This document shows positions 2,376-25,681 of a stretch of 32,253 nt of DNA, piece after piece; positions within the stretch are counted from its first letter, which is position 1; every line of letters begins with the position of its first letter. The stretch is from Candidatus Gastranaerophilales bacterium. Lineage in GTDB: Bacteria; Cyanobacteriota; Vampirovibrionia; Gastranaerophilales; Gastranaerophilaceae. The position numbers were made by a program, and so were the translations under genes. Location: assembly GCA_947624645.1 (NCBI GenBank), contig CANQLG010000023.1:1-32253 (forward strand), given 5' to 3'. The notes under the pieces were generated by a model. That model searched no databases. It saw only the letters and a list, made by a program, of their open reading frames with translations, and was not told where the DNA came from.

Positions 2376-2388
2376 TATAATTAATATT

Positions 2389-10084: not shown

Positions 10085-10801
10085 TTATTCAAAAATCATT
10101 TTTTGAATAATTTTTTGGAAATCTTTAACCCGCATAAAAGAAAATGCTTCAACGGCATCTAAATTCTTTAATAATCCTCTATATGAATTCAATCCTATAA
10201 TTTTATCTGCATAATTCTTTGATATTGTTTGAGATTGGTGGCAGTTAATTATTTGTTTTTTCATATCAATAACTTTTGATATATCAACATAATATTGCGG
10301 CATATTTATGGTTGACCATACTTCATAATAGGCTATATTCAGATTGCTTTTATATTCAGAGTGTTTAAGTTTATTGCTTAATAACAAACTTACAGCTTTA
10401 TGGTCTTTGTGCTGGTCAAAAATATAAGGAATGAAAATTATGTCGTATGAAGAAATATCTATTGTATCAAATTCTTTTTGCCCGTTAATAATATTTTTAT
10501 CCCGTAAATTGAGCATTTTTAAATTATTAATTTCTGCAAGTGCCATAGCTTTTTGCATTTCTTGTTTTCTTATATCGCTATCATCACCGTGAGTGAGGCA
10601 AACAACATCAAAGAATTTGGGATACATTGATAATAAACCGCCGCAACCGATGCTTTCATCATCAGGGTGCGGTGCAATTACTAAATATTTTTCATTCTCT
10701 TTTGGAATAAATTCCATAGGTTTTATATTTGTACCGAAAAAAGGATTATAAATCTTATTTAGCAAAAGCCTGTATAATATTTTCATAAATATCTTCTTCA
10801 T
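10085..10801 (-). CDS. PIG-L/LmbE-family deacetylase
   Basis: A 238-aa zinc-dependent deacetylase of the PIG-L family. The N-terminal metal site is APHPDDE at 43-49, and the downstream site is DQHKDH in FIPYIFDQHKDHKAV. Family members remove the acetyl group from N-acetylglucosamine units of lipids, mycothiol/bacillithiol precursors or antibiotics. About 35 hydrophobic and basic residues precede the catalytic domain and may touch the membrane. It is transcribed toward the membrane-anchored small protein, with a 61-nt gap holding that gene's own promoter candidate. The substrate is not evident from the context. A TATAAT just upstream suggests a very short leader. Confidence 0.9.
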   Translation of the reverse strand: MKKIFMKILYRLLLNKIYNPFFGTNIKPMEFIPKENEKYLVIAPHPDDESIGCGGLLSMYPKFFDVVCLTHGDDSDIRKQEMQKAMALAEINNLKMLNLRDKNIINGQKEFDTIDISSYDIIFIPYIFDQHKDHKAVSLLLSNKLKHSEYKSNLNIAYYEVWSTINMPQYYVDISKVIDMKKQIINCHQSQTISKNYADKIIGLNSYRGLLKNLDAVEAFSFMRVKDFQKIIQKMIFE

Positions 10802-10883: not shown

Positions 10884-11879
10884 TTATTTTATTGAATATC
10901 CCCGTTCCATAACGGAGGTTGTATATGGCGGCATACCAAAATCCATATTGTTTTCATGGCATGTCTTTTTTACATAGTCTGAAATTTCGTAGTAGTGCTT
11001 GGGAATTGTAAAAGCTTTATCAATAATATCACGGTAATCGATATCTAAAACTATTATTTTAATACCTATTTCAACCATCAAATTCATAAACTTTTTAATT
11101 TCTTCCATATTATCGTTATAACCATTTACGATGATATATTTTATTATTATTGAATCATTGCCGGCTTTAACAATGTATTTTTTTAAGTTTTCAACGGATT
11201 TGTCGAATTTATCGACTTGTTTAATTTTTAAATAGGTTTCACGGCATCCCGAGTCAAGTGCTGTACATAGCTCTCCCTTTTTCGCAGCTAAAAGTCTTTC
11301 TATTATGGGCATATATACTATGTTATTAGTCGGAATATATATTGTTCCTACACCTCTTGTCAAAAAAGTATGTATAATATCTTCATGGTTTTTCAGGCAT
11401 GAAATATTTCCACCCTGAAAATCTATATAAAGGTTTTGGGTATCAATTAGATTATTATCATAAAGTTCATTAATAAATTTTAAAACATCATATAAAACGG
11501 GTTTATTTTCATCTTCTATTATTTTTTCAAAAGTTCTGTTACCCTGTGTGCAGTATATACAAGCACAATTGCACTGAGTGTAGTGGTTAAGCGTAATTTT
11601 ATTAATTCTAAAATCAGTTTGCTTTTTATATTCCGTAATATGTACGCAGTTTTGGCATTTATCTGGAATTTTACCCGATTTAAACATCTCTATATAGTGT
11701 TTTTTGGCTTTTATAAATTCTTTAATTGAGTCTTTTGTTGATAAATTACTGACTAAAGCAGGGCCTATGTTTGCGCTGCAGCAAGGTTCTAAAGTGTCTC
11801 TTGATGTAAAGTGCAAATGGTTGTTCAATAATGGACACATCAAAGATTTTTTATTCTTGAATATATTTAATAAACTCAT
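10884..11879 (-). CDS. Radical SAM protein, array family B (GGN variant)
   Basis: A 331-aa member of the rSAM array. The N-terminal auxiliary cysteines are C15, C33, C34 and the pair C75/C78 (KCQNC). The rSAM motif is CNCACIYC (C103, C107, C110). The usual GGE is FQGGNIS, so the Glu that normally contacts SAM is Asn. It shares the family signature SGCRETYLKIKQVDKF and a KYIIVNGYND segment. It is closest to the genes at 11902 and 21559, which share LNN/LNE and CCS...GP near the N-terminus. It is divergent from 11902 with only 22 bases between starts, and no ribosome site is visible, so the mRNA may be leaderless. Substrate unknown. Confidence 0.85.
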   Translation of the reverse strand: MSLLNIFKNKKSLMCPLLNNHLHFTSRDTLEPCCSANIGPALVSNLSTKDSIKEFIKAKKHYIEMFKSGKIPDKCQNCVHITEYKKQTDFRINKITLNHYTQCNCACIYCTQGNRTFEKIIEDENKPVLYDVLKFINELYDNNLIDTQNLYIDFQGGNISCLKNHEDIIHTFLTRGVGTIYIPTNNIVYMPIIERLLAAKKGELCTALDSGCRETYLKIKQVDKFDKSVENLKKYIVKAGNDSIIIKYIIVNGYNDNMEEIKKFMNLMVEIGIKIIVLDIDYRDIIDKAFTIPKHYYEISDYVKKTCHENNMDFGMPPYTTSVMERGYSIK

Positions 11880-11885
11880 AAAAAT

Positions 11886-11895
11886 ATTATATAAT
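11886..11895. promoter_or_regulatory. Overlapping divergent -10 elements
   Basis: The 22-base gap between two divergent rSAM genes contains ATTATATAAT, which gives a TATAAT on each strand. Transcription starts would fall at or next to both start codons, so both messages would be leaderless or nearly so. -35 boxes would lie inside the coding regions and are not clear. Confidence 0.4.
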
Positions 11896-11901
11896 GGAAT
11901 T

Positions 11902-12894
11902 ATGAAAAAAAGTTATTATTGCAAAAGATTAAATGAAACATTAAATTTTGATGCACTCAAAGTCTTTTATTGCTGTGCAACAAGAACAGGTCCGTCTATT
12001 GATGTGCCGGAACCAAAGCATGTAAAAGATATTATAAAAAAACGTAATTTTCTGATAAAACAACTTGACCATGGGCAAATCCCCCATGAGTGTGAGGGAT
12101 GTTTTGATTTAAAAGAAAAAGAACATCAGGAGTATGGCGGCTTCAAATTTTTTACCAAAATGCCTAAAGCTAATCTTATTATAGTAAAACATTTTAAACA
12201 GTGTGACTGTGCTTGTATATATTGTTGTGAGCAATATTTATCAAAAAGAAAAATAGTGCTTAAACCCCAAAAAAGTGATTATTATGATTTATTACCGATA
12301 ATAAAAGAATTGTATAAACAAAATATTATAGACAAAAAAGAGCTTGATGTTCATTTTCAGGGTGGGAATATTAGTGTGCTTGATGAGTTTGAACCATTAC
12401 TCAATACTTTCATGGAAAATGGAGTCAAAAGGGTAGAAATAGCTACTAACGGTATACAATATTTGCCTCAAATTGCTCAAATAGCAAATAGAACTTTTGT
12501 GGATGTTAATATTTCCATAGATTCCGGCTGCCGTGAAACATTTAGAAAAATTAAAACTGTTGATAAATTTGATGATGTTGTTGAAAATCTAAAAAAATAT
12601 GTAAAATTGCCTATTCTTTTAAGATTAAAATATATTCTTGTGCGAGGCGTAAACGATAGTATAGATGAATTAACCAAATATATTGATTTAATGCAAGAAA
12701 TCGGAATAAAAAATTCAGAACTTATGATTGATCAATGTGACAATGAATTTATTCAAAACGGAGAGTTTAAAATACCGGATTATTATTATGAACTGTTTAA
12801 ATTCTATAAGGAAAAATGTGCTCAAGCAGGTATTGAAGCTAATATTTGGGATTATATTAAAAAAATTTTAGATAAAGGCTCATTTTTTAAGTAA
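11902..12894 (+). CDS. Radical SAM protein, array family B (GGN variant)
   Basis: A 330-aa rSAM protein starting at the ATG at 11902. The frame is open further upstream, but only as the antisense of the neighbouring gene. Auxiliary cysteines are C7, C24, C25 and C64/C67 (CEGC). The rSAM motif is CDCACIYC (C101, C105, C108) with an extra Cys right after it. The GGE position reads FQGGNISVL, as in the gene at 10884. The core has SIDSGCRETFRKIKTVDKF and KYILVRGVND. Its last 15 bases overlap the end of the convergent gene at 12880. Together with 10884 and 21559 it forms a subgroup with an altered SAM-binding loop. Substrate unknown. Confidence 0.85.
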   Translation: MKKSYYCKRLNETLNFDALKVFYCCATRTGPSIDVPEPKHVKDIIKKRNFLIKQLDHGQIPHECEGCFDLKEKEHQEYGGFKFFTKMPKANLIIVKHFKQCDCACIYCCEQYLSKRKIVLKPQKSDYYDLLPIIKELYKQNIIDKKELDVHFQGGNISVLDEFEPLLNTFMENGVKRVEIATNGIQYLPQIAQIANRTFVDVNISIDSGCRETFRKIKTVDKFDDVVENLKKYVKLPILLRLKYILVRGVNDSIDELTKYIDLMQEIGIKNSELMIDQCDNEFIQNGEFKIPDYYYELFKFYKEKCAQAGIEANIWDYIKKILDKGSFFK

Positions 12895-13899
12895 ATTCTT
12901 TATTCTCTGTATTAATGAAAGTTTAACGGGTTTTAAATTTTTAAGATAATCATTTATAAAACAGTGTTCATCTTTAAAAATTGGGTCAGTAAGAATTTTA
13001 ACAAGTTCGTTATGTTTAGGGTGTGTATCAAGTGTTACATCCAAATCCTTTTCAAGTTCATCGGATTGAATTTGTCTGTGGTAATTGATGAAAAATGCAG
13101 TACCATCCATTTCTTTTGCAAATTTAACAAAATCTTTCATCTCTTTATAATTTAATGCAGTTACAACAAAATTTAATTGAAGAGCATTTATTTTTCCCTG
13201 TTTTTTTAGAGATGATAAATATTTAACATTTTCTGTAACGGCTTTAAAATTTCCCCTTTCAACAAGTTTATTATATGTTTTTTCAGTTGATGCATGTATT
13301 GAAATTATTGCATAATCTAATCTGTCTTCAAGTCCGAGTTTTTGTGTTGTTTCTTTTGTAAATAAAATTCCGTTTGAAATTATTCCAAACTTTATATCAG
13401 GATTTATATTAATAATTTTCTTTAATATTTCAACAGAGTGTTTGCTTGCGAATAATTCACCTGCGGAATTTAATTCAACAAGCTCTGCGTTTTGAATTAT
13501 GGGAGTAAAAATCTTATCAAAATTATCTTCTATACGTTTTTCTTTTTGGCGGTTATATTCTTCTTCTTCTTTGTTTTTTTCATTGCGGCAAAAGATACAG
13601 CGTACATTACAGTGCCTATCATAACTGAATTCTATACGTTTGGGGTACGGTGCAGTATAACTTGGCGTAATATTTTCATAAGCAGGGTCACAAACATCTA
13701 ATTTACAATATTTATAATTATTTTCAATAAATTGTTTCCGAAATTCTTTTGCTTTATCTCCGTTCCATATTTCGTCAAATGATTGTTCAAATATATTTCC
13801 GAACGAATAAAAATCAGTCCAAAAACAGCAGCAACAATATATTTCTCCCGTATTTTGTACTTGAATACTGTTAAAAGGATGTTTACATATATTATTCAT
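12880..13899 (-). CDS. Radical SAM protein, array family A (N-terminal SPASM-like)
   Basis: A 339-aa rSAM protein, start ATG at 13899; a TTG two codons upstream is possible. Residues 1-75 look like a SPASM domain placed in front of the rSAM core: C5, GEIYCCCC (C22-C25), SFGNIFEQSFDEIWNG, FR, then C65 and C70. The rSAM motif is CNVRCIFC (C97, C101, C104), and the SAM-loop reads SAGELFAS. SIHASTEKTYNKLVERGNF replaces the family B D.G..ET signature. The C-terminus ends in a basic amphipathic tail (LKPVKL...RIKNLLKK) shared with the other two family A genes. No ribosome site is seen and a TATAAT lies just upstream, so the message may be leaderless. Confidence 0.85.
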   Translation of the reverse strand: MNNICKHPFNSIQVQNTGEIYCCCCFWTDFYSFGNIFEQSFDEIWNGDKAKEFRKQFIENNYKYCKLDVCDPAYENITPSYTAPYPKRIEFSYDRHCNVRCIFCRNEKNKEEEEYNRQKEKRIEDNFDKIFTPIIQNAELVELNSAGELFASKHSVEILKKIININPDIKFGIISNGILFTKETTQKLGLEDRLDYAIISIHASTEKTYNKLVERGNFKAVTENVKYLSSLKKQGKINALQLNFVVTALNYKEMKDFVKFAKEMDGTAFFINYHRQIQSDELEKDLDVTLDTHPKHNELVKILTDPIFKDEHCFINDYLKNLKPVKLSLIQRIKNLLKK

Positions 13900-13910
13900 A
13901 AACAAATTGT

Positions 13911-13918
13911 ATTATAAT
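13911..13918. promoter_or_regulatory. Palindromic -10 shared by divergent genes
   Basis: ATTATAAT is its own reverse complement and supplies a TATAAT to both strands between the genes at 12880 and 13956. For the minus gene the transcript would begin about five bases before the start codon; for the plus gene the leader would be about 30 bases and include GGAGG. Confidence 0.4.
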
Positions 13919-13955
13919 ATTGTTAATATGGCAAAGTATATTTGGAGGTTTTAAT

Positions 13956-14951
13956 TTGAAATATGTAAGCTGTTCAAATATCCAAAACGGATTAAGATTT
14001 GAATATAATTGCATTAAGCTGTGTTGTTTTATGGGAAATAATACACCTGAGCCGTTGTTTATAAAAAAAGATTACTGGGGTGAAAAATTAAACTGGAATG
14101 AACTCCTTGCCAATATAAATGAAATTAGAGAAAATTTTAAAAAAGGGATAATTGACAGTCACTGTAAAGGTTGTTTTGCTTTAACCGAGCAAGATTGGGA
14201 TAATAATACAAAATTTAAATGGATTCAAATAGCACACTGGAGTGAATGCAATTGTAATTGTACATATTGTTACAGGCTACAAAATGATTTTGTAAAACCT
14301 AAAAAACGATATAAAATTATGCCGATAATTAAAGAACTGGACAAAATGGGAATGATTGACTACTCTGGAGAACTGGCATATTCCGGAGGCGAACCTGCAA
14401 GTTTAAGAGAATTTGATGATATAACAAACTTTTTCATTAAAAAAGGTGAAAAAAATATAATGGTGCATACTAATGCTATAAAACCCGTTAAATCTGTTCT
14501 TAAAGGATTGAAAACAGATACTTTGTCGGTTACTGCAAGTGTTGACTGTGGAGATCGGCAAAAATTCAAACAAATAAAACAAGTTGATGCTTATAATAAA
14601 GTTATGGATACATTAAAAAAATACGTTAACGCTCAGGGAAATAATAAAAAAATGGTTCGTTCCAAGTATATAATTATTCCTAAAGTTAATGATACGGTTG
14701 AAGATGTTAATAAATGGCTTGATGAAACTCAAAAAATAGGTATTCAGCAGGTAATTATAGATTTTGAATCCGATTGGCTTGAAAGAAATAAAAATGATAT
14801 TCCGTCATACATTGATGACCTCTATGATTATATAGTGGCAACTGTAAAACAGAGAGGACTTGATATTCAATTCTATGGGGTCGCTAATCAATACAGAACA
14901 CTAAAAGGCAAAGATTTAGATGTCGGAATCGGGCTTCATCAGGGAGAATAA
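13956..14951 (+). CDS. Radical SAM protein, array family B
   Basis: A 331-aa rSAM protein. The start is TTG at 13956, chosen because a perfect GGAGG (13944-13948) lies seven bases upstream and because the N-terminus then aligns with its relatives (KYVSC, compare SYKSC and RYKSC). Auxiliary cysteines are C6, C19, C23/C24 and C70/C73 (CKGC). The rSAM motif is CNCNCTYC (C98, C102, C105), followed by YSGGEPASL. Further signatures are SVDCGDRQKFKQIKQVD and KYIIIPKVND. The last 36 bases overlap the 3' end of the convergent gene at 14916, the longest coding overlap in the array. Substrate unknown. Confidence 0.85.
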   Translation: MKYVSCSNIQNGLRFEYNCIKLCCFMGNNTPEPLFIKKDYWGEKLNWNELLANINEIRENFKKGIIDSHCKGCFALTEQDWDNNTKFKWIQIAHWSECNCNCTYCYRLQNDFVKPKKRYKIMPIIKELDKMGMIDYSGELAYSGGEPASLREFDDITNFFIKKGEKNIMVHTNAIKPVKSVLKGLKTDTLSVTASVDCGDRQKFKQIKQVDAYNKVMDTLKKYVNAQGNNKKMVRSKYIIIPKVNDTVEDVNKWLDETQKIGIQQVIIDFESDWLERNKNDIPSYIDDLYDYIVATVKQRGLDIQFYGVANQYRTLKGKDLDVGIGLHQGE

Positions 14952-15959
14952 CCTTTTTAAAAAAGATACTTTCTCCAGTCCCGTAAAATATTCCCAGCCT
15001 TGTATAACTATGTCTTGCGCCTGCATAAATTCTTTTGAATGAACTACTTTTACAAGAGAATTATACTGAGGGTGTTTTGGGTTCTGTATATTGATTTTTT
15101 TATATAACGTTTCCAAATCTCTTGAACAATCAAGTCCCAGAAATCTTATATTTGCACCTAATTGCCTTGCAAATTTAATCATATCAGGCATTTCTTTATA
15201 ATTTATACTTGTTACCGTATAATGAAGCTCAAATCTTTCAATTTGCCCTGATTTTTTAAGTTCTGACAGGTATTTTAAATTTTCAATAACTTTTTTATAG
15301 TTGCCGCCTTTAACAAGCTTGTTATAGGTTTTTTCTTTAAATGCATGAAGTGATACCGTAATCATTGAAATGCGGTTAGTTAAATTCAGTTTTTCAATGT
15401 TTTCTTGTGTACAGTGGATGCCGTTTGTTATAATTTCAAACTTTATATTAGGGAAATTATCTGCTATATTTTTAATTAAATCTCTTGAAATTTTGCTTGC
15501 GAATACTTCTCCTACGGCATTTGTTTTTACATATCTCGCATTTTTCAGCCAAGGAGTTAATATTTCAAGTAGCTTATCCTCCTTATTTTTAGGAATTAAA
15601 TTAGGATTGACCTTATAATTTTCGGGTCGGCAGAATATACATTTTACGTCGCAAAATTCATCTAAACCAAGCAGCACTCTTTCAGGCGGAGCGGAAATTA
15701 ATTTAGGTTCGTTGTCACTTATTACTTTAAGAATTTCTAAATTTTGACAACCGGGGCAAAGTGAAAAATCGTTATCATAAAGTTTTTGTCTGAATTCCTT
15801 TGCCTTATCTCCATTCCATATTTCATCATAAGTTTGTTCAAAAATATTACCGAAAGAATACCCCCTAATCCAACCGCAGCTGCACGGGTATACATTTCCA
15901 TACGGCATAATTTCAGCTAATATATAAGGATTCGGACAATATATATGCTTAGATTCCAT
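14916..15959 (-). CDS. Radical SAM protein, array family A (N-terminal SPASM-like)
   Basis: A 347-aa rSAM protein. The ATG at 15959 follows the upstream stop codon by one base (TAA-T-ATG) and has GGCAGG as a ribosome site, so it is coupled to the gene at 15961. The N-terminal SPASM-like part has C8, GNVYPCSC (C26, C28), SFGNIFEQTYDEIWNG and C68/C71. The rSAM motif is CDVKCIFC (C103, C107, C110), with AVGEVFAS as the SAM-loop. SLHAFKEKTYNKLVKGG matches the other family A proteins. The C-terminal tail (VSFLKRLFSLMKP) is again hydrophobic and basic. Third gene of a minus-strand operon reading A, B, A. Confidence 0.85.
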   Translation of the reverse strand: MESKHIYCPNPYILAEIMPYGNVYPCSCGWIRGYSFGNIFEQTYDEIWNGDKAKEFRQKLYDNDFSLCPGCQNLEILKVISDNEPKLISAPPERVLLGLDEFCDVKCIFCRPENYKVNPNLIPKNKEDKLLEILTPWLKNARYVKTNAVGEVFASKISRDLIKNIADNFPNIKFEIITNGIHCTQENIEKLNLTNRISMITVSLHAFKEKTYNKLVKGGNYKKVIENLKYLSELKKSGQIERFELHYTVTSINYKEMPDMIKFARQLGANIRFLGLDCSRDLETLYKKINIQNPKHPQYNSLVKVVHSKEFMQAQDIVIQGWEYFTGLEKVSFLKRLFSLMKPDSDI

Positions 15960-15960
15960 A

Positions 15961-16944
15961 TTACCTGCCGTTATCAATATATCTTATAACCTCGGTATAA
16001 CCACAGGTTGTGAGAATTTCCCTGTATGAAAGATTACATTTATGTTCGTGTGCGTATTTTACAACGATTTCAATATATTCTTTTACGTTATCGGGGCAAT
16101 ATTTATTTTTTTCGTACCAATGATGTTCAAGCTCTAATTGAAGGTTTGTTATCCCTAAATCTTCAACAATTTTAAGCCAGCTTTGAATTTCATTTAATGT
16201 ATCGTTATAGCCGGGGATAAATATAAATTTTAATCCTATTAAGCTGTTGCGTATCGGGTCTAAGCCTTTTTGATATTTCTTAATGTTATTAATTACCTTT
16301 TTGAAACAGTCAACATTTTTAATTTTTTTATAAGTTTCTCTTGTACCTGCGTCCAAGGAAATTGTAGGGGCCGAGCGTTTCAGCTCGATTGCTTTTCTTA
16401 TCCATTTTGAATAATCAACTGCTGCTGTATTTATCATTATAAAAATATTTGTTTTTGTTAAAAAGAATTTCATTAAGTCCGGGAATTCTTTTAGAACGGT
16501 AGGTTCTCCGCCTGTTATATTAACGTTTCCTTCGTAGCTTAACATATTATTTTTTAGAGCATCTTTTAAAACAGGAAGTATTTTCCACGGTTTCATTTTA
16601 TTTAATTCTTTTTTACGTTCATGGGTGTGGCAATAAATGCAATCTAACGGGCAATTCTCCCAGTGATTAATAAGAATATATTTAAGCTGCATATCTCCCG
16701 CCCAGTCTTTAACCTTTAAACTTGGGCAGCCTTGACATATTGGCGGTATATCATTTTTTGCAAATCTGTCACGGTATTCTTGCTTAATTTGTCTTATTTT
16801 ATCCCAATCAAATAACTCGCCTTTATAATCCTCTATAATCTTTATCGCTTCAAATTTCATGCACATCGAATAACTGCATAAAACAGCAGCGTCATATATA
16901 AAACACATTCCGTTTTCAACAAATTCACACGATAAATATGACAT
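15961..16944 (-). CDS. Radical SAM protein, array family B
   Basis: A 327-aa rSAM protein with a good ribosome site (GAGGAA) upstream of its ATG. Auxiliary cysteines are C6, C23, C28 and C70/C73 (CQGC). The rSAM motif is CPLDCIYC (C98, C102, C105), unusual in the family for having Pro rather than Asn after the first Cys. The SAM-loop is TGGEPTVLKEF. The core has SLDAGTRETYKKIKNVDCF and KFIFIPGYND. It is the middle gene of the operon 17992 to 14916, sandwiched between two family A genes with a 43-nt upstream gap. This arrangement suggests that A and B proteins may act together, but no partner evidence is in the sequence. Confidence 0.85.
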   Translation of the reverse strand: MSYLSCEFVENGMCFIYDAAVLCSYSMCMKFEAIKIIEDYKGELFDWDKIRQIKQEYRDRFAKNDIPPICQGCPSLKVKDWAGDMQLKYILINHWENCPLDCIYCHTHERKKELNKMKPWKILPVLKDALKNNMLSYEGNVNITGGEPTVLKEFPDLMKFFLTKTNIFIMINTAAVDYSKWIRKAIELKRSAPTISLDAGTRETYKKIKNVDCFKKVINNIKKYQKGLDPIRNSLIGLKFIFIPGYNDTLNEIQSWLKIVEDLGITNLQLELEHHWYEKNKYCPDNVKEYIEIVVKYAHEHKCNLSYREILTTCGYTEVIRYIDNGR

Positions 16945-16987
16945 ATTTTTTCCTCGTAAATTCTTATAAAAATATTATATTATAAAC

Positions 16988-17992
16988 TTATTTTAAAAAC
17001 TTATTTTTTAAAGATTTAATAAAACCTATTGGTTTTAAATTTAACATTGTATCGTTAATTGTGCATTTACCCGAGCGGAATATGGGATTCTTCATAACTT
17101 TTACAAAATCATTATATTTTGGATGATTTTCGTCAACTATATTAAGTTCTTTATAAACATTTTCATTTGTTTCCAGTTCTAAAAGTTCCAAAAAACCGAC
17201 AGTGGCATCAATTTTCTCCGCCATTTTTATATAATCAGCCATTTCTCGGTAATTATATGCGGTAACAACAAAGTTCAGAATAAATCTGTCAAGTTTTCCT
17301 TGGCGTTTTAGATTTGATAAAAACTTTAAGTTTTCCATAACTTTGTTAAAATCGCCATTTTTAACCAGTTTGTCGTATGTTTCTTTTTTTATTGCGTGGA
17401 GTGAAACCGTTATTGATAATAACTTATCAATAATTCCAAGCTCTCTTAAATTTTTTTCATCGCATAAAATACCGTTAGAAATAAGTGAAAATTTAATATT
17501 TGGAAACATTTCTGCAATATGTTTTATAAGTTTTCTTGAATGCGGGCTGAATAGTGCTTCGCCTACTCCAGATAGAACAACATTTTCGGCATTTTCAAGC
17601 ATGTTTGAAATTATTTCATCCATATGTTCATTAAAATATGATAAATCCTGCTTTTGGTGGCAGCTGCGACAGAATATACATTTTACATTGCAGGTAGCGT
17701 CATAACAAAAAATAAATGTTTTTGGTTTTTTAACAATTTCTGACGGAACAATTTTTTGCGCACAGTCTTTAACGCATAAATCGAGCTTGCAATATTTGTA
17801 ATTATTGTTTATAAATTGTCTGCGAAACTCTTGCGCACGCTCTCCGTTCCATATTTCATCAAATGGCTGTTCATAAATATTACCAAATGTATAATTACTG
17901 CTCCAAGGCGGGCAACAGACGTAAACGTCACCTTGCATGCTTATTTGTGCTGCGTTAAAAGGAAATGTACATATTGCGTAATTTTTATTCAT
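16988..17992 (-). CDS. Radical SAM protein, array family A (N-terminal SPASM-like)
   Basis: A 334-aa rSAM protein with GGAG six bases before its ATG. The N-terminal SPASM-like domain has C8, GDVYVCC (C26, C27), TFGNIYEQPFDEIWNG, and C68/C73 (YCKLDLC), nearly identical in spacing to the gene at 12880. The rSAM motif is CNVKCIFC (C101, C105, C108), and the SAM-loop reads SGVGEALFS. SLHAIKKETYDKLVKNG is the family A form of the central motif. The C-terminal tail is LKPIGFIKSLKNKFLK. It is the first gene of a three-gene minus operon and divergent from 18063 across 70 bases. Confidence 0.87.
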   Translation of the reverse strand: MNKNYAICTFPFNAAQISMQGDVYVCCPPWSSNYTFGNIYEQPFDEIWNGERAQEFRRQFINNNYKYCKLDLCVKDCAQKIVPSEIVKKPKTFIFCYDATCNVKCIFCRSCHQKQDLSYFNEHMDEIISNMLENAENVVLSGVGEALFSPHSRKLIKHIAEMFPNIKFSLISNGILCDEKNLRELGIIDKLLSITVSLHAIKKETYDKLVKNGDFNKVMENLKFLSNLKRQGKLDRFILNFVVTAYNYREMADYIKMAEKIDATVGFLELLELETNENVYKELNIVDENHPKYNDFVKVMKNPIFRSGKCTINDTMLNLKPIGFIKSLKNKFLK

Positions 17993-18032
17993 TTAAGTCT
18001 CCAAGTAAAATATATAATAAAATTATTGATTT

Positions 18033-18041
18033 TGGTATAAT
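18033..18041 (+). promoter_or_regulatory. Extended -10 promoter (TGG-TATAAT)
   Basis: TTTGG followed by TATAAT lies 21 bases upstream of the ATG at 18063, leaving room for the GGGAG ribosome site at 18052-18056. It is the same sequence as the minus-strand candidate at 10047-10055. No clear -35 is present, as is usual with an extended -10. Confidence 0.45.
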
Positions 18042-18062
18042 GTAAACAAACGGGAGTATAAA

Positions 18063-19088
18063 ATGCAATATAAATGCTGTAATCATATATTAGGAAGTAT
18101 AGACTTGGGATTTAACGGTTTTAAATATTGTAATGAAGTATGGGAAGGACCTGAGTATATTCATTACAACGAAGAAAATGCATTTGAAAAAAATGAAAAG
18201 CGCCGTTTGAAAATCATAGAAGAAATGAAGAAAGGAATAATACCAGAGCGCTGTAAATTGTGTCCAGAACTTAAAGAACAGGATTGGAAAGAGTTTGACG
18301 GCAAAATATTTAAAATAACCGTTTTTAACTGGAAACACTGTAACGCCGCATGTTTTTACTGTTCAGTCGGTTCCGATTTTCATGACGGTGTTAAAAAAAG
18401 CGATGATTATGATTCTTTGCCTATTATTGAAAAATTAATTAAACAGGGGAGGTTAAATCAAGACTCTTTTATAGCTTTTATGGGCGGAGAACCTACTATG
18501 CTTGCCGAATTTCCCGCAATAGTTAAACTTCTTTTATCCCAAAATTGCAGAATGGAAGTATTAACTAACGGAATTAAATATGAAAGCGTTATAAGTGAAA
18601 TGCTGAAAGCTGATAACCATAACACTATTTGTATTTCGCTTGACTGCGGCTGTCAGGAAACCTATAAACGTATTAAAAGAGTTGATAAATTTAATGAAGT
18701 TATTGAAACTGTTACAAGATATATTATGGAAAGCGGAGAGAAATCCGGCAGAGTAAAATTAAAATATATTATTTTCCCAAATGTTAATGATAATAAAAAA
18801 GAAATAGACAGATTTTTTGAAGTCTGCAAAAATATGGGTGTTAAAACAGTTGCAAGAGCAGTTAATCACCATGAGAGCAAAATGGATACCACTAAAAATC
18901 AAGTAATAGAATCATCCGTTATAAAAGCGTATTCGTATTTTGCTAAACAGGCTGAAAAACTCGGGTTTGAACTTCAATTAGAACCTTGGGCAGACGCTAT
19001 TATAGAAAATAAAGTTTATAACTGCCGAAAAATTTCACCGCTTGTCAGATTAAAATCAGAATTACATTTTTTGTTCTCAAAAAATTAA
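18063..19088 (+). CDS. Radical SAM protein, array family B
   Basis: A 341-aa rSAM protein. Auxiliary cysteines are C5/C6, C23 and C64/C67 (CKLC). The rSAM motif is CNAACFYC (C93, C97, C100), the SAM-loop is MGGEPTMLAEF, and the central signature SLDCGCQETYKRIKRVDKF is a textbook match to the array. KYIIFPNVND follows. The N-terminal part is shorter than in relatives and has a single Cys at the second site. A GGGAG ribosome site and an extended -10 make this one of the better-defined transcription units. Its TAA overlaps the TAA of the convergent gene at 19085 in a shared TTAA. Confidence 0.87.
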   Translation: MQYKCCNHILGSIDLGFNGFKYCNEVWEGPEYIHYNEENAFEKNEKRRLKIIEEMKKGIIPERCKLCPELKEQDWKEFDGKIFKITVFNWKHCNAACFYCSVGSDFHDGVKKSDDYDSLPIIEKLIKQGRLNQDSFIAFMGGEPTMLAEFPAIVKLLLSQNCRMEVLTNGIKYESVISEMLKADNHNTICISLDCGCQETYKRIKRVDKFNEVIETVTRYIMESGEKSGRVKLKYIIFPNVNDNKKEIDRFFEVCKNMGVKTVARAVNHHESKMDTTKNQVIESSVIKAYSYFAKQAEKLGFELQLEPWADAIIENKVYNCRKISPLVRLKSELHFLFSKN

Positions 19089-20455
19089 ACAATTTCAATT
19101 CTGCCCAGTTTAGGCATTTTAGCATATATTCTTTTGGTTTCTGCATCTTTTAGTACTTTAAATAAAGAATGTGCATAAGAAAATTTGATTGTAGAAAAAC
19201 TCGTTTTAAGTATTTCTTCTATAATAGGTGATTTTATTGAACTTTCGGTAGTAAATTCAAGATCAAAACCGAGCTGTAAAAGTTCTGTTATTTTTTTATC
19301 AAAATCGGTTGCTTTTGTAATGTCTTTATATTGTGAACTTAAAAAGGCTCTTCTTTCGGGCGAAAACTTATCTTCACTTATTTGTTTGTTTAAAGCATCA
19401 AAATCTATATTTTCGTCAATATTTAGGTATAAATCTTTATACTTGTATTTGCCCGTGAGTTGTTTTTCATAGATATTTTTTGCTCTGTTCATAAAAGCAA
19501 GAAATGAATTTACTTTAATATTGTATTTCCTTGCGGCGAGTTCGGTATATTTAAGCATTTTAAGCGTGCGGTTAATATATTTTTTATTTTCGCATTTTTC
19601 AGATGAACATACGCTGTGTTCCGCATCAAACTGAACTTCAACAATACCCATATCGGCGCAGTTTTTAAGCCACATTTCTATTTCTTTTGCATTATCGTTA
19701 TAACCTGCTAAAAGAATATATTTTAAAATAACAAAATTCTTTAGTCTTGCGCTGTTAAGGTATGTTTTCATATTTTTCATAACGATATCATAAAATTTTG
19801 TACCCTTAATTTTCTCAAATGTTTCACGGCAGCCCGAATCAATACTTGCTACAATAGCTGCACTGTCAATTTTTTTTATGGCTTTACATAAACTTTTTGA
19901 TAACTTTATGCCCGATGTTGGCACGTATATTTCAGGTACATTGTGTGAAGAAAATAAGTCAACAAGATAATTAAATTCTTTTATTAATGTTGGTTCACCG
20001 CCGACAAACCTTAAAGAACCGTTATATTTTAACAAGTTTTTCTCCGTAAGCTCATTTATTACGGGTAAAAAATCAAACTCTTGTTCTCTGTTATGCCACT
20101 CTTCTATCCTGCCCGTCGGGCAATATATACATCTGGAATTACATTTCATTATATGACCTGCGGTTAAATGGTTGATATAATCTTCATCATCCCATTCATT
20201 TTCAACCAATTCAAAGCAGCCATCACATTGACTCGGATAAATTCCTTTTTTCGCATTTTCTCTTAATTTTCGTTTTTCACTAAAAATATAATCCCAATTA
20301 AGGTTTTCTTCTTTTAAGTTAAAATATAAATAAAGTCTGTCGTTAAAATCTAAATGGTCAGTGTTACAGCAATGTCCGGCACATATTTTTTGTGTCCCCG
20401 GGTCTTGATAAATATATATTCCATGCTCTAATAATCTGCAGCTTTTATATCTCAT
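19085..20455 (-). CDS. Radical SAM protein, array family B with C-terminal extension
   Basis: A 456-aa rSAM protein, about 115 residues longer than the other family B members. The common part has C6, C25, C29/C30, C77/C80 (CDGC), the rSAM motif CNSRCIYC (C105, C109, C112), VGGEPTLIKEF, SIDSGCRETFEKIKGTKF and KYILLAGYND. After about residue 340 there is an extra helical domain rich in acidic and Lys residues with no cysteines, ending in AKMPKLGRIEIV; I do not recognise it. No ribosome site is seen before the ATG. It is divergent from 20540 across 84 bases that contain a TACAAAATTTTGTA palindrome. Substrate unknown. Confidence 0.85.
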   Translation of the reverse strand: MRYKSCRLLEHGIYIYQDPGTQKICAGHCCNTDHLDFNDRLYLYFNLKEENLNWDYIFSEKRKLRENAKKGIYPSQCDGCFELVENEWDDEDYINHLTAGHIMKCNSRCIYCPTGRIEEWHNREQEFDFLPVINELTEKNLLKYNGSLRFVGGEPTLIKEFNYLVDLFSSHNVPEIYVPTSGIKLSKSLCKAIKKIDSAAIVASIDSGCRETFEKIKGTKFYDIVMKNMKTYLNSARLKNFVILKYILLAGYNDNAKEIEMWLKNCADMGIVEVQFDAEHSVCSSEKCENKKYINRTLKMLKYTELAARKYNIKVNSFLAFMNRAKNIYEKQLTGKYKYKDLYLNIDENIDFDALNKQISEDKFSPERRAFLSSQYKDITKATDFDKKITELLQLGFDLEFTTESSIKSPIIEEILKTSFSTIKFSYAHSLFKVLKDAETKRIYAKMPKLGRIEIV

Positions 20456-20484
20456 AAATAAATATTATCATTGAATTAAACTTA

Positions 20485-20498
20485 TACAAAATTTTGTA
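20485..20498. promoter_or_regulatory. Palindrome TACAAAATTTTGTA
   Basis: A perfect 14-bp palindrome sits in the divergent region between two rSAM genes, partly overlapping the place where a -35 box for the plus gene would be. It resembles the palindrome at 6020-6034. An operator role is possible but unproven. Confidence 0.3.
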
Positions 20499-20514
20499 AA
20501 AAAATATATTATGT

Positions 20515-20520
20515 TATAAT
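20515..20520 (+). promoter_or_regulatory. Candidate -10 box
   Basis: A consensus TATAAT lies 19 bases upstream of the ATG at 20540. A GAGGTGAG ribosome site follows at 20529-20536. The best -35 match, TTGTAA at 20494-20499, has a short 15-base spacer. Confidence 0.4.
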
Positions 20521-20539
20521 ATTCTCAAGAGGTGAGAAT

Positions 20540-21550
20540 ATGGGAAAAATGTACAGATGCAGATATTTGGCACATGGTTTATATATTCATTATGATTGTT
20601 TCAGGCACTGTCATTTATCAATTCATTCTCCAAAAGAAAGAAATAATAATTATATAATTCCTTATTCGGGTCCAAAAGATAATGTTGATTGGGAAAAAGT
20701 TTTTAATATTAAAAATACACTTGTAAAAAACATGAGACTTGGTGATATTCCTCCATTTTGCCAAGGATGCCATTGGATAGAAGAATTTGATGAAAATTCA
20801 GAAGAACAATTTGAATCTGATTTAGATAATTACCTTGATATGATATGGATAGGGCATTCTAATGAATGTAATGCTAATTGTATATATTGTTTTGCCTATC
20901 AGGAAATATTAGAGCACAGGACATATAAACCTTATGATATTTTCCCTTTGTTTAAAGAAATGCTTAATAAGAAGATATATAATTTGGAAAAAGCACCCGG
21001 AGCTCATATTTCTTTTGCGATGGGAGAGCCTACCATATTAAAAAAATTTGATGATATAATTAAACTTTTTGCAAAATATGGAAATAAACACTTTGCACTT
21101 TATACTAACGGTATAAAATACAGTAAAATGGCAGCTAAGGTGCTGGAAACAGATGGTGTTGATATACACATTGTAATATCACTTGATGCCGGTTCAAGAG
21201 AAGTCTTTAAAAAAGTAAAAAAAGTTGATAAGTTTAATGATGTCTGTAAAAATATTAAAAATTATACGAAAGCGTCGGAAAAATATAATCCGAGAGCTTT
21301 AGGCGTAAAATATATTATTATACCGAATATTAATGATACGAAAGAAGAAATAGATAAATGGTTTGATTTATGTGTTAATAAACTTGGGGTGAAATATTTA
21401 ATTGCGGATATTGAAGAAAAGTGGTTTGTAAGACAAAACGGTGAAGTTCCCGAATACGTTAAAGAACTTTTGAGATATATAAGAAATAGATGCGAAAAGG
21501 AAAATATAGCATTTGAATTTTATGATAGAGCCTTAGTGCTTAATTTATAG
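20540..21550 (+). CDS. Radical SAM protein, array family B (MGE variant)
   Basis: A 336-aa rSAM protein, first of a plus-strand run of three. Auxiliary cysteines are C7, C20, C24 and C74/C77 (CQGC), and a longer acidic loop (EEFDENSEEQFESD) separates them from the rSAM motif CNANCIYC (C110, C114, C117). The SAM-loop is FAMGEPTIL, with Met replacing the first Gly of GGE but the Glu kept. SLDAGSREVFKKVKKVDKF and KYIIIPNIND match the family. It has a strong GAGGTGAG ribosome site and a TATAAT upstream. The next gene starts eight bases after its stop. Substrate unknown. Confidence 0.87.
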   Translation: MGKMYRCRYLAHGLYIHYDCFRHCHLSIHSPKERNNNYIIPYSGPKDNVDWEKVFNIKNTLVKNMRLGDIPPFCQGCHWIEEFDENSEEQFESDLDNYLDMIWIGHSNECNANCIYCFAYQEILEHRTYKPYDIFPLFKEMLNKKIYNLEKAPGAHISFAMGEPTILKKFDDIIKLFAKYGNKHFALYTNGIKYSKMAAKVLETDGVDIHIVISLDAGSREVFKKVKKVDKFNDVCKNIKNYTKASEKYNPRALGVKYIIIPNINDTKEEIDKWFDLCVNKLGVKYLIADIEEKWFVRQNGEVPEYVKELLRYIRNRCEKENIAFEFYDRALVLNL

Positions 21551-21558
21551 GCGTAAAT

Positions 21559-22551
21559 ATGAAACAATACTTTTGTGATGAGTTAAATAATGTATTATCC
21601 TGTTTCCATGACAGAATCATGTCGTGCTGCTCAGGGCAAATTGGGCCTGTTTATTATGAAGCATATAAGGGTCAAAAAATTGATTGGAAGGCTTTTAGAC
21701 AAGTTAAAATTGATGCATTTAATATGTTAAATGAAGAAAATATTGATAAATCACCTTGCAAGGGTTGTTTTTTTCTGAGGGAAAAAAGACCCGATGATAT
21801 TATATCTCCTACATTTAATATGATTAATATAAGTCATTGGACTCAATGTAACTGCGGATGTATATATTGTGCAAGAATGCAGCATTCAAAAGGAAAAATT
21901 ACCTATAAACCTGAAAAAAGCGAGTACTATGATATGCTTCCGTTATTAAAACAACTTTATAAACAAGAACTGCTTGACAGAAAAAATCTCGTTGCCAGTA
22001 TTCAAGGTGGAGATATTTCCGTACTTAAAGAATTTGAACCTATGGTTAAAGAGTTTTTAAAAAACGGTGTAAATCGTTTTTATATTCTTTCCAATAATAT
22101 TAAATATCAGCCGATTATTGAAAAACTGCTTAAAAATAATATGGTTGATTTTACAACATCTCTTGATTGTGCTTCGCCTGATATTTACTTAAAGTTGAAG
22201 CGTGTTGATAAATTTTATGACAGTGTTAATAATCTTAAAAAGTACGCTAAAGTTAATAACGGGATAGGTGTTACCGTTAAATATATAGTTATTGAGCATA
22301 TTAATGATAATATCGAAGAAATAACAAAATTTGTAAACCTTATGGATGATATTGGTATAAAAAATATTGAATTTATGATTGATAATAAGTATGTTATGTT
22401 TACAAATTTGGATGAAACGCCCCTGCCAAGTCATTATGGTGAGTTATATAGGCATTTTAAAAAATTGTGTGACGAAAAAAATATTAATTTAACCATTTGG
22501 TCTAAAACAGAGTATATTATAAATAAATATGCACTAAAAATTGTAAGTTAA
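21559..22551 (+). CDS. Radical SAM protein, array family B (GGD variant)
   Basis: A 330-aa rSAM protein, second of the plus-strand run. Auxiliary cysteines are C6, C15, C23/C24 and C67/C70 (CKGC). The rSAM motif is CNCGCIYC (C97, C101, C104). The SAM-loop reads IQGGDISVLKEFEP, so the GGE Glu is Asp, and the whole loop resembles the QGGNIS of the genes at 10884 and 11902. The central signature is also changed, to SLDCASPDIYLKLKRVDKF. KYIVIEHIND follows. The ribosome site is weak (GGCG), so translation may depend on coupling to the gene before it. Substrate unknown. Confidence 0.86.
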   Translation: MKQYFCDELNNVLSCFHDRIMSCCSGQIGPVYYEAYKGQKIDWKAFRQVKIDAFNMLNEENIDKSPCKGCFFLREKRPDDIISPTFNMINISHWTQCNCGCIYCARMQHSKGKITYKPEKSEYYDMLPLLKQLYKQELLDRKNLVASIQGGDISVLKEFEPMVKEFLKNGVNRFYILSNNIKYQPIIEKLLKNNMVDFTTSLDCASPDIYLKLKRVDKFYDSVNNLKKYAKVNNGIGVTVKYIVIEHINDNIEEITKFVNLMDDIGIKNIEFMIDNKYVMFTNLDETPLPSHYGELYRHFKKLCDEKNINLTIWSKTEYIINKYALKIVS

Positions 22552-22578
22552 AAAGTAATTATATAGTGAGGATTATAT

Positions 22579-23589
22579 ATGAGTTACAAAAGTTGTAAAT
22601 TTATTCAAGGAGGGATAGCGTTTAAACATGATGTGATTTCTTTTTGTAATAAACTTTGTGGAACAAAACGTTATGAAAACTTTAATATACCTTATGAAGG
22701 TGATTTTTATAATAAATATATTGAAATAAGAGAAAAAGCAATTGAAAATTGTAAAAAAGGTATTTTACCGCATGAAGGCTGCCGGTATTGTCCGTATGTT
22801 GAAGATAAAGATTGGGATGAAGATACAAGATTTAGAGAATTTGAAATAACTCATTGGATACATTGCAACTGCTCTTGTTGCTATTGTTCTTTGCTTTCTC
22901 AAACAAAAGGCAAAATTACCAGATTTAAAACAAAAAGTCCATATCTTCAATTATTTCCTATTATAAAACGAATGCTAAAAGAAGGCAGAATCCATCCGGA
23001 GGCATTTTTCTCAATAGTAGGCGGAGAACTTACCGTGTTAAAGGAATTTCCGGATATAATGAAATTGTTGTTAAAACAGAAAAATGCTAATTATGCTTTT
23101 TGTTTGCATACAAATGCTATAAAATATGAAAAACTTTTATCTGAAGCAGTTGCAAGAAACAGCCGTACTTGTGTATCTGTTTCAGTTGATGCAGGTTCAA
23201 GAGATTTGTTTAAGCGAATGAAGAAGATAGATGCATATAACGATGTTATAAAAAATCTGAAACGCTATATACAGGATGCTAAAAAAAGCGGTAATGACAA
23301 TAGAATTGTTGTTAAATATATTATAGTTCCAAATGTTAATGATAATAAAGAAGAAATAGATAAATGGATTAAAACTTGCAAAGATATAGGTGTAAAAACG
23401 CTGCAACCTGCAATTGAATTTTGCTCTCATATTATAACACCCGGGACTTTCAAAGAAAAACAGGGAATATTATATGAATATATGAAAGAACAAATTGTTG
23501 TAAATGGCTTTGATATGATTACTTATGATTTTTTAGAAGATATAGTTAAAAATAAAAGTTTTGATTTAACTATAAAGTCAAATAATTAA
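22579..23589 (+). CDS. Radical SAM protein, array family B
   Basis: A 336-aa rSAM protein, third of the plus-strand run, with GAGGA six bases before its ATG. Auxiliary cysteines are C6, C23, C27 and C68/C71 (CRYC). The rSAM motif is CNCSCCYC (C96, C100, C103, plus two extra Cys). The SAM-loop is VGGELTVLKEF, in which the usual Pro after GGE is Leu. SVDAGSRDLFKRMKKIDAY and KYIIVPNVND match the family. The TAA is shared with the convergent gene at 23586 through a TTAA, exactly as at 19085-19088. Substrate unknown. Confidence 0.87.
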   Translation: MSYKSCKFIQGGIAFKHDVISFCNKLCGTKRYENFNIPYEGDFYNKYIEIREKAIENCKKGILPHEGCRYCPYVEDKDWDEDTRFREFEITHWIHCNCSCCYCSLLSQTKGKITRFKTKSPYLQLFPIIKRMLKEGRIHPEAFFSIVGGELTVLKEFPDIMKLLLKQKNANYAFCLHTNAIKYEKLLSEAVARNSRTCVSVSVDAGSRDLFKRMKKIDAYNDVIKNLKRYIQDAKKSGNDNRIVVKYIIVPNVNDNKEEIDKWIKTCKDIGVKTLQPAIEFCSHIITPGTFKEKQGILYEYMKEQIVVNGFDMITYDFLEDIVKNKSFDLTIKSNN

Positions 23590-24602
23590 GGTAATTTAGT
23601 ATTTAATTTTCTGAATACAAATTCAATGTTGGGGAAAAACATATAATTTAGTTTGTTTTCTTTTGCTTTTTTTGCCCAAAAATCAGCAAGCTCTACAAAA
23701 TGATGCAGAAGATTTTCATCATAGTTCATATTATTTAAAAGTTGATTGTATACATTCAGCGCTACTTGAGTAGCCCCGTTTTTTCTTGATTGTTTTATAA
23801 ATTCTTCAAGTTCTTTTTTATTGTCATTTATATTTGGCACTATAACATATTTTGTACAAAGTCTTTTTGTATAATCTTTATTTTTAGCTTTAGAATATTT
23901 TTTAAAATTATGCCAAACTTTATCAAAAGATTTTACGCCTTTTACTTTTTCGTGGCATTTTTTCGTTCCCGCATCAATAGAAATCATAAGGCTTATTGCG
24001 TTTTGTTTTATGCCTTGTTCAATTGCTTTTGAATATTGAATATTATTTGTGTGAATTATAATATTTTTAAAATTATTATCAAGTAAAAAGTATATAATAT
24101 CATCAAATTTAGGGTACAAGGTAGGTTCACCGCCGGCAAAATCAAATTCACAATCTTGAGCTATCACATTGTTTCTTATCATATCCTTAATAATTTCCAA
24201 CATATCATAAGGTTCTATAAATTCTTTTCGGAATTCTTGGTAGTTTGTATCTTTTTGTGATTTAGGTTCAACATGTCCCAAACAATATATGCAGTTGGAA
24301 TTGCATACTTGCCATGGCGATAATAATATGTAGTGAATTTTTTTATCGTCGATAAACTCTTCATCTTCTATTTGCTGACAGTTTTGGCATTCAATTCTGG
24401 CATTAGAATTTTTAATGCCTTCAATTTCTTTCGTACGATAATCAAAAAACTTATTCCAATCAATCTTTTCCCCGTCAAATACTTCATCGGAAATTTTTGG
24501 CCAGCCTTTTCCGTTATTGGCATTTGTTAAGGTACAGTATGTTATACCGATTTCTTTGTAATTAAAGCATATTGAAGTATTTAAATTATTACATATTTTC
24601 AT
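23586..24602 (-). CDS. Radical SAM protein, array family B
   Basis: A 338-aa rSAM protein that starts two bases after the stop codon of the gene at 24605, so the two are coupled. Auxiliary cysteines are C4, C23 and C72/C75 (CQNC), with a single Cys at the second site. The rSAM motif is CNSNCIYC (C100, C104, C107), followed after a long loop by FAGGEPTLYPKF. SIDAGTKKCHEKVKGVKSF is a divergent form of the central signature, and KYVIVPNIND is present. The C-terminus is plain, with no extension. Substrate unknown. Confidence 0.86.
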   Translation of the reverse strand: MKICNNLNTSICFNYKEIGITYCTLTNANNGKGWPKISDEVFDGEKIDWNKFFDYRTKEIEGIKNSNARIECQNCQQIEDEEFIDDKKIHYILLSPWQVCNSNCIYCLGHVEPKSQKDTNYQEFRKEFIEPYDMLEIIKDMIRNNVIAQDCEFDFAGGEPTLYPKFDDIIYFLLDNNFKNIIIHTNNIQYSKAIEQGIKQNAISLMISIDAGTKKCHEKVKGVKSFDKVWHNFKKYSKAKNKDYTKRLCTKYVIVPNINDNKKELEEFIKQSRKNGATQVALNVYNQLLNNMNYDENLLHHFVELADFWAKKAKENKLNYMFFPNIEFVFRKLNTKLP

Positions 24603-24604
24603 TA

Positions 24605-25681
24605 TTAATTATCTCTTATTTGTGCAATAAATGTATGATTAGTATACAGTTTTTTTAAATCTTTATCAAAATACTTAAATTTTATTGATTTTATAAAACG
24701 AGAAAAAATATTTTGTTTTTTTATAGTTTTATTATTAGTATTTTGAAAGAAAAAGCAATAAAATTCAGTTATAAAGTTTTGCTTTTTTGCTAATTTATCC
24801 ATTTCATATGCAAGATTAATAAAGTAATCATCAATATTATAGTTAGTAACTCTTGAATATCTGGCATCAATGTCAATTATAAGGTTTCTTACTCCAAGCT
24901 TTTTAGCAATATTAAGAAATTTTTTAAATTCCCTAATATTATCATTATATGTCGGAACAATTATATATTTAAGCCTGATAGCTTCACGTGATTTTTCGGT
25001 AGCCGCATATTTTGTAAGATTTTCAATAACTTTTTTAAATGCATCAACTCTTTTTATTTTTCTGTAAGTTTTTTCGGAACCTGAGTCTAATGACACAATT
25101 ATATATGTAGTTGCTTCATCCATTGCTCTAAAAAGGTTATGATTGTATTTAATTGCGTTAGTGGGAACAAAAACTCTTGCAAAATTATTAATTGCAAAAA
25201 GTTCAAGAAATTCATCACATTCCCTATATATAGTAAACTCTCCGCCTCCGATATGAAATTCACACCCTTTTTTTATAATACCTTGTTCAAAGTAGTATTT
25301 TAACAACGGAATTATGGAATATGTATTAGGATTTCTTGCCCATTGTTCCGTATTATTGGAGCAATATATACAATCTGCGTTGCACATGGAAAAGTGTGTA
25401 ATAGTAATTTGATCAATATAACGTTTATCATCCCAATCTTTTTCTTCGATTTTATAGCAGTTTTGACATTCTTTAGGACAATCACCCTGCTTAAAGATAT
25501 TTGCATATTTATCCATTCTGGCGAATAAGTCATCAACAGGAATAATTTGACCCCAATAATGATAAGCAAGTACAGGTGGGAACTGGTCATCAATCTGATC
25601 AACAGGTGAAAAACAGCAAGAAGCAAGTTTATTGTCAAAAAAACATAATCCATGTTGTATTAAATGACAGCTTTTATACAT
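24605..25681 (-). CDS. Radical SAM protein, array family B
   Basis: A 358-aa rSAM protein and the last member of the array. Auxiliary cysteines are C5, C22/C23 and C72/C75 (CQNC). The rSAM motif is CNADCIYC (C100, C104, C107). The SAM-loop is IGGGEFTIYRE. SLDSGSEKTYRKIKRVDAF and KYIIVPTYND match the family. The C-terminal 50 residues form an extra basic, aromatic tail (NIFSRFIKSIKFKYF) that is absent from most family B relatives and may bind membrane or a partner. The gene follows the GDPD gene by 41 bases on the same strand. Substrate unknown. Confidence 0.87.
   Translation of the reverse strand: MYKSCHLIQHGLCFFDNKLASCCFSPVDQIDDQFPPVLAYHYWGQIIPVDDLFARMDKYANIFKQGDCPKECQNCYKIEEKDWDDKRYIDQITITHFSMCNADCIYCSNNTEQWARNPNTYSIIPLLKYYFEQGIIKKGCEFHIGGGEFTIYRECDEFLELFAINNFARVFVPTNAIKYNHNLFRAMDEATTYIIVSLDSGSEKTYRKIKRVDAFKKVIENLTKYAATEKSREAIRLKYIIVPTYNDNIREFKKFLNIAKKLGVRNLIIDIDARYSRVTNYNIDDYFINLAYEMDKLAKKQNFITEFYCFFFQNTNNKTIKKQNIFSRFIKSIKFKYFDKDLKKLYTNHTFIAQIRDN

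Follow-up and report, generated by a model that had tools for sequence, protein, structure and literature searches.

What fourteen consecutive radical SAM (rSAM) genes could do together is the question raised by positions 10884-25681 of the 32,253-nucleotide stretch analysed here (the window), which is contig 23 of a 2.14 Mb Gastranaerophilales genome that is 99.8% complete; the host is a gut bacterium with kinship to the cyanobacteria. All fourteen ORFs were found at the coordinates of the original prediction and none has an internal stop. Their products all carry the CX3CX2C motif and score above the gathering score of PF04055 (14/14, Pfam), which assigns them to the radical SAM superfamily. 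They comprise eleven proteins of type B and three of type A (at 12880, 14916 and 16988), in line with the two architectures that had been described. The repeated change of orientation and the near-zero spacing noted at the outset were also borne out: the strand switches at 8 of 13 junctions, five neighbouring pairs overlap by 4-36 bp and the remaining gaps measure 2-84 bp. This leaves room for no other gene between the members, so that the description as an enzyme-only array holds for the window; it fails for the genus, where the islands of relatives contain other genes as well (see below).

The array begins with 1B (10884-11879, minus strand), an rSAM protein with an N-terminal four-Cys domain (PF04055; orthologs 74-87% identical in relatives), and 2B (11902-12894, plus strand; PF04055; orthologs 75-83%). 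The A proteins 3A (12880-13905) and 5A (14916-15977), both on the minus strand, combine an N-terminal SPASM domain with the rSAM domain (PF13186 and PF04055); the true start of 5A may be the ATG at codon 7. 7A (16988-17992, minus strand) has the same SPASM and rSAM organization, and several of its orthologs are fused to an SGNH-fold membrane domain. Between them lie 4B (13956-14951, plus strand), which has a TTG start (PF04055; predicted model pLDDT 91; orthologs 77-94%), and 6B (15961-16944, minus strand), the most conserved position (84-98% between species). They are followed by 8B (18063-19088, plus strand; PF04055), by 9B (19085-20455, minus strand), whose C-terminal extension of ~125 aa is also found in its orthologs, and by 10B (20540-21550, plus strand; PF04055). 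In relatives a GDP-mannose 4,6-dehydratase gene adjoins 11B (21559-22551, plus strand), and its site is occupied in the window by 12B (22579-23589, plus strand). The last two rSAM genes are 13B (23586-24602, minus strand; PF04055) and 14B (24605-25681, minus strand), which lies away from the core array in many relatives.

The divergent start codons of 1B and 2B are 22 bp apart (window 11880-11901) around TATTATATAAT. For each of the two genes, 6 nt separate the end of a TATAAT hexamer from the ATG, which suggests leaderless and divergent promoters. The same 6-nt spacing forms a peak among other ORFs of the window genome too. Sigma-70 and terminator scans of the array gave signal near shuffle levels. 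The glycan-type genes near the array are limited to a PIG-L family deacetylase that adjoins 1B (10085-10801, minus strand; PF02585, E 3e-14), a DegT/DnrJ/EryC1 sugar aminotransferase (1206-2411, minus strand; PF01041, E 2e-88) and a TupA-like ATP-grasp protein (4592-5608, plus strand; PF14305, E 1.5e-33). Three more rSAM genes are found left of the array (411, 3521 and 6056). The third (6056-7423, plus strand) codes for an rSAM/SPASM protein; by eye, its first ~100 residues resemble a PqqD/RRE domain, and it is a possible peptide maturase. Two paralogs of ~320 aa (2389-3384, minus strand, and 7423-8370, plus strand) adjoin the rSAM genes at 3521 and 6056; they matched no Pfam or NCBIfam family and resemble U32-type Cys proteins by eye.

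The A proteins are SPASM-type rSAM proteins, with PF13186 found at their amino terminus in 3/3 cases (E 3e-13 to 1e-15). The same search gave no match in B members, in whose N-terminal region four conserved Cys (C15, C33, C75 and C78 in the first protein) precede the rSAM cluster motif. The profile alignment of B with A spans the whole length, and the extra N-terminal Cys sets are predicted to hold an auxiliary Fe-S cluster. The four Cys are a more specific feature of B than the two motifs proposed earlier as common to all its members, which are variants of generic rSAM-core motifs. As written, D.G..ET..KIK.VD fits 3 of the 11 proteins and KYI...ND fits none of the 11, while K[YF][IV]x5ND fits all 11. 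No array protein reached the cut-off of curated sugar-rSAM or RiPP maturase models. The best scores were 62.8 bits for A against twitch rSAM NF033640 (cut-off 170), 47.5 bits for B and 53.6 for A against prokaryotic viperin NF038283 (cut-off 180), and at most 31.7 bits against BlsE TIGR04466 (cut-off 400); B members also match the Tes model weakly, far under its curated cut-off of 450 bits.

The window genome codes for 37 B and 9 A proteins, 46 copies spread over many contigs from singletons up to the array of fourteen, which is the largest run among them. Most of its dispersed single copies adjoin housekeeping genes and have no glycan neighbours. In the genus, B is found in 36 of 39 genomes (median 26, maximum 42) and A in 34 of 39, and the numbers of B and A copies rise together (rho 0.78). 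Neither B nor A occurs in three of the genus genomes (G007, G018 and G032). In a phylum sample of 292 genomes (B threshold E <= 1e-40), B is limited to this genus and to three sister genera, where it is a single, longer protein; when these longer proteins served as queries in a broader search for the family, single copies turned up in a few more genera. As to the distribution beyond the phylum, the titles of the 80 listed out of 352 candidate loci name Gastranaerophilales or uncultured bacteria and Cyanobacteria, and the nearest named relatives among the matches listed are Candidatus Gastranaerophilales MAGs, including Avigastranaerophilus. Phages, plasmids and viral contigs gave no match to the family, which speaks against a mobile or phage origin. 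One B protein is fused to a MatE transporter domain (L041:8983-11271) and, in the window genome, a B ORF (L003:2905-3954) overlaps a MatE-like ORF. No paper describing the expansion was found by title and abstract, with full text restricted to open-licence articles, and nothing like the array appears to have been described so far.

The B proteins inside the array are 25-39% identical to each other. Between species, the orthologs of a given position mostly share 60-98% identity, and their order and orientation are kept. In a tree of 385 proteins the array members group with orthologs from other genomes; support is high for most positions. The dN/dS values (NG86) at the array positions compared are roughly 0.01-0.14, approximate figures given that dS is near saturation; 12B, which has no ortholog in the 385-protein tree set, was left out. 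They indicate that each of the members open to this comparison is under purifying selection. The CX3CX2C motif is kept in 384 of 385 full-length copies. Taken with ortholog identity, kept order, the tree and low dN/dS, its integrity argues for an old and ordered array that is kept under constraint. The sole full-length B copy that lacks the motif is L063:2217-3197. The expansion with divergence suggested at the outset is thus supported by the copy numbers, the low B-B identity and the signs of purifying selection, but not as the recent tandem amplification for which a phylogenetic test had been proposed: every position corresponds to an ortholog group that is conserved from one species to the next, and these groups together with synteny rule out such an origin. 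Decay into pseudogenes is ruled out by motif conservation and dN/dS, and copies are not decayed in the relatives compared. The arrangement is not due to chance, since the same gene order recurs in many independent genomes; gene linkage within one genus is in part a single inherited arrangement and not a set of independent events.

The neighbourhoods were read from individual genome stretches. Islands in relatives reach 26 A/B genes in 35 kb (G002), 22 in 36 kb (G001) and 20 in 32 kb (G014). Inside them are genes for GDP-mannose 4,6-dehydratase, SGNH-fold proteins, an ApbA-like dehydrogenase and large multi-TM membrane proteins, the latter without a specific Pfam family. A close homologue of the dehydratase (Pfam PF16363, E 8.5e-114; NCBIfam gmd, 392 bits vs a cut-off of 415) is present in 16 of 39 genus genomes, as one copy in most. 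Its gene directly adjoins 11B and/or 13B in ten genomes, and in an eleventh its neighbours are DegT and GT2 genes, with 14B at a distance of two genes. The dehydratase gene of the window genome has no adjoining rSAM gene. At the other end of the array, B12-rSAM, cupin, DegT (LegC/PseC/WecE-like) and GT2 genes flank 1B in relatives, and in G015 cupin, DegT, dehydratase and GT2 genes form one cassette. SGNH-fold membrane proteins, whose fold matches are GDSL and carbohydrate esterases and an LPS acetyltransferase domain, are encoded at several array positions in relatives, besides being fused to 7A. They are the commonest non-rSAM neighbour family, found beside 11 rSAM ortholog groups. Obligate coupling to them is ruled out by the uncorrelated copy numbers of B and SGNH (rho 0.18; a genome with 35 B copies lacks any SGNH match). 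Relatives therefore display the linkage to nucleotide-sugar and glycosyltransferase genes that defines a surface-glycan island (dehydratase, DegT, GT2, SGNH). A small-ORF family shared by the surroundings of the 46 own-genome rSAM copies and of those in relatives was not found, which speaks against cis-encoded RiPP precursors.

The single-copy homologues of the sister genera align with B over 289 columns that include the four N-terminal Cys (hhalign 99.9%). Such homologues might have placed the family in a characterised pathway, and we know of none that contains them. Two of the five examined (L096 and L100) are fused to a hexapeptide acyltransferase. That domain of L096 is closest to WbbJ of LPS O-acetylation (E 2e-22), and the L096 gene overlaps a PGA_cap capsule gene. 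The fusions and the overlap point to surface glycans.

The rSAM core of the B model (4B, pLDDT 91) matches SuiB, SkfB, BlsE, PFL-activase and DesII (Foldseek and structural comparison). These best matches include both RiPP maturases (SuiB, SkfB) and sugar enzymes (BlsE, DesII), hence the fold does not decide the substrate. Searched against the PDB, the B profile matches best the archaeal tetraether synthase GDGT-MAS (E 2e-10), followed by the cytosylglucuronate decarboxylase BlsE, while the N-terminal SPASM of A finds its best solved-structure match in BtrN (E 5e-11).

The balance is about even for the proposal that an ancient rSAM radiation, specific to the genus, has its core in the array and putatively serves to tailor either nucleotide sugars or the glycan residues from which a surface polysaccharide is built. 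The CX3CX2C motif, the second Cys set, the selection, the conserved order and the recurrent linkage to nucleotide-sugar and glycan genes are the observations on which it builds. It is further favoured by the dehydratase beside 11B/13B, the DegT, GT2 and cupin genes at 1B, the WbbJ and PGA_cap features of the outgroup, the SGNH neighbours, the BtrN and BlsE matches, the lack of a shared small ORF near the rSAM genes, and the DegT, TupA and PIG-L genes that flank the array in the window. GDP-mannose 4,6-dehydratase and the DegT aminotransferase would supply 4-keto or 4-amino-6-deoxy sugars. Each rSAM enzyme would then generate a 5'-deoxyadenosyl radical and carry out its own deamination, oxidation, epimerisation or similar reaction on a nucleotide sugar or lipid-linked glycan residue, a step that would resemble the sugar or aminocyclitol conversions of DesII, BtrN and BlsE. 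O-acylation may be adjusted by SGNH-fold membrane proteins together with hexapeptide transferases, and large membrane proteins with GT2 enzymes may assemble the polymer. Under this proposal, many divergent enzymes imply many distinct residues or positions modified. Its extension to a genus-wide 'radical-sugar' system, with up to ~50 divergent rSAM enzymes per small genome in old ordered islands and a different predicted surface-glycan modification for each, is more tentative and leans towards the doubtful side. The main weakness of sugar tailoring is that dispersed copies mostly lack glycan neighbours and that SGNH number does not track B. The position of the window dehydratase away from rSAM genes, the indecisive fold and the absence of a sugar-rSAM model at cut-off also count against it, and we know of no precedent for a 2.1 Mb genome that encodes 46 different rSAM enzymes for sugar modification.

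The missing glycan neighbours of most dispersed copies would be in keeping with RiPP-like maturases, each with a peptide or protein target of its own, on which it would act in trans; the targets would be precursor peptides or surface proteins whose genes lie elsewhere. A carries a SPASM domain, as peptide maturases typically do; SuiB and SkfB are among the closest structural matches, and the nearby B12-rSAM and PqqD-like rSAM genes could act on peptides too. This alternative seems rather unlikely, given that neither a common small-ORF family near the copies nor a score at a curated RiPP maturase cut-off was found and that the recurrent neighbours are sugar enzymes. Chemistry of the tetraether or hopanoid type, with lipids or lipid carriers of the cell envelope as the substrates of A, of B or of both, is improbable: the GDGT-MAS match, although the best of the B profile in the PDB, covers profile positions 64-206, a stretch of generic rSAM core plus some of the N-terminal region, the weak Tes matches stay far below 450 bits, and there are no linked lipid-synthesis genes.

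Least credible, and very improbable, is a role in antiviral defence, with the array as an island of prokaryotic enzymes that resemble viperin and produce ddh-nucleotides. Ten of the 11 B proteins match PADLOC pVip models at E <= 1e-3 (best 4e-16), but generic rSAM similarity yields comparable MoaA matches, the curated scores (B <= ~48 bits, A 54) are distant from 180, B carries the extra N-terminal 4-Cys domain, and the order is kept across species, unlike in typical defence islands. The scattered copies, their number from 0 to 42 and the three genus genomes with none could also mean that the expansion is mainly a by-product of duplication in which few copies have distinct chemistry. This is already contradicted by the long-lived ortholog groups, the dN/dS range at the positions compared and the near-universal CX3CX2C, and is likewise held improbable.

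The genus appears to devote a few percent of a 2 Mb genome to one unassigned rSAM family, in islands of 14-26 genes. If its members are sugar enzymes, no single organism known to us would have a larger source of glycan-directed radical chemistry, and they would bear on how hosts and phages see gut Melainabacteria. They would also offer many divergent enzymes for mapping substrate change among rSAM proteins.

Known systems share parts of this organization. The RiPP maturases SuiB and SkfB are top structural matches of the B model, but their precursor peptide is encoded beside the enzyme and none was found near the array. The twitch-domain rSAM proteins of NF033640 have, as in A, an N-terminal twitch/SPASM domain followed by the rSAM core; A scores at most 63 bits against their cut-off of 170, and we know of no large arrays in that family. 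BlsE is a sugar-acting rSAM enzyme and the second PDB match of the B profile, yet B is far under the curated BlsE cut-off and BlsE is not part of an array. The auxiliary cluster domain of BtrN, the aminocyclitol dehydrogenase of butirosin, best matches the SPASM of A; it is C-terminal in BtrN, a single gene, and N-terminal in A. DesII (TDP-4-amino-4,6-dideoxyglucose deaminase) is a single gene in an antibiotic cluster, with ~13-16% identity over the aligned part. It is nonetheless among the structural neighbours of the B model and, like the proposal made here for the array, acts as an rSAM enzyme on a nucleotide sugar produced by a 4,6-dehydratase and a DegT-type aminotransferase.
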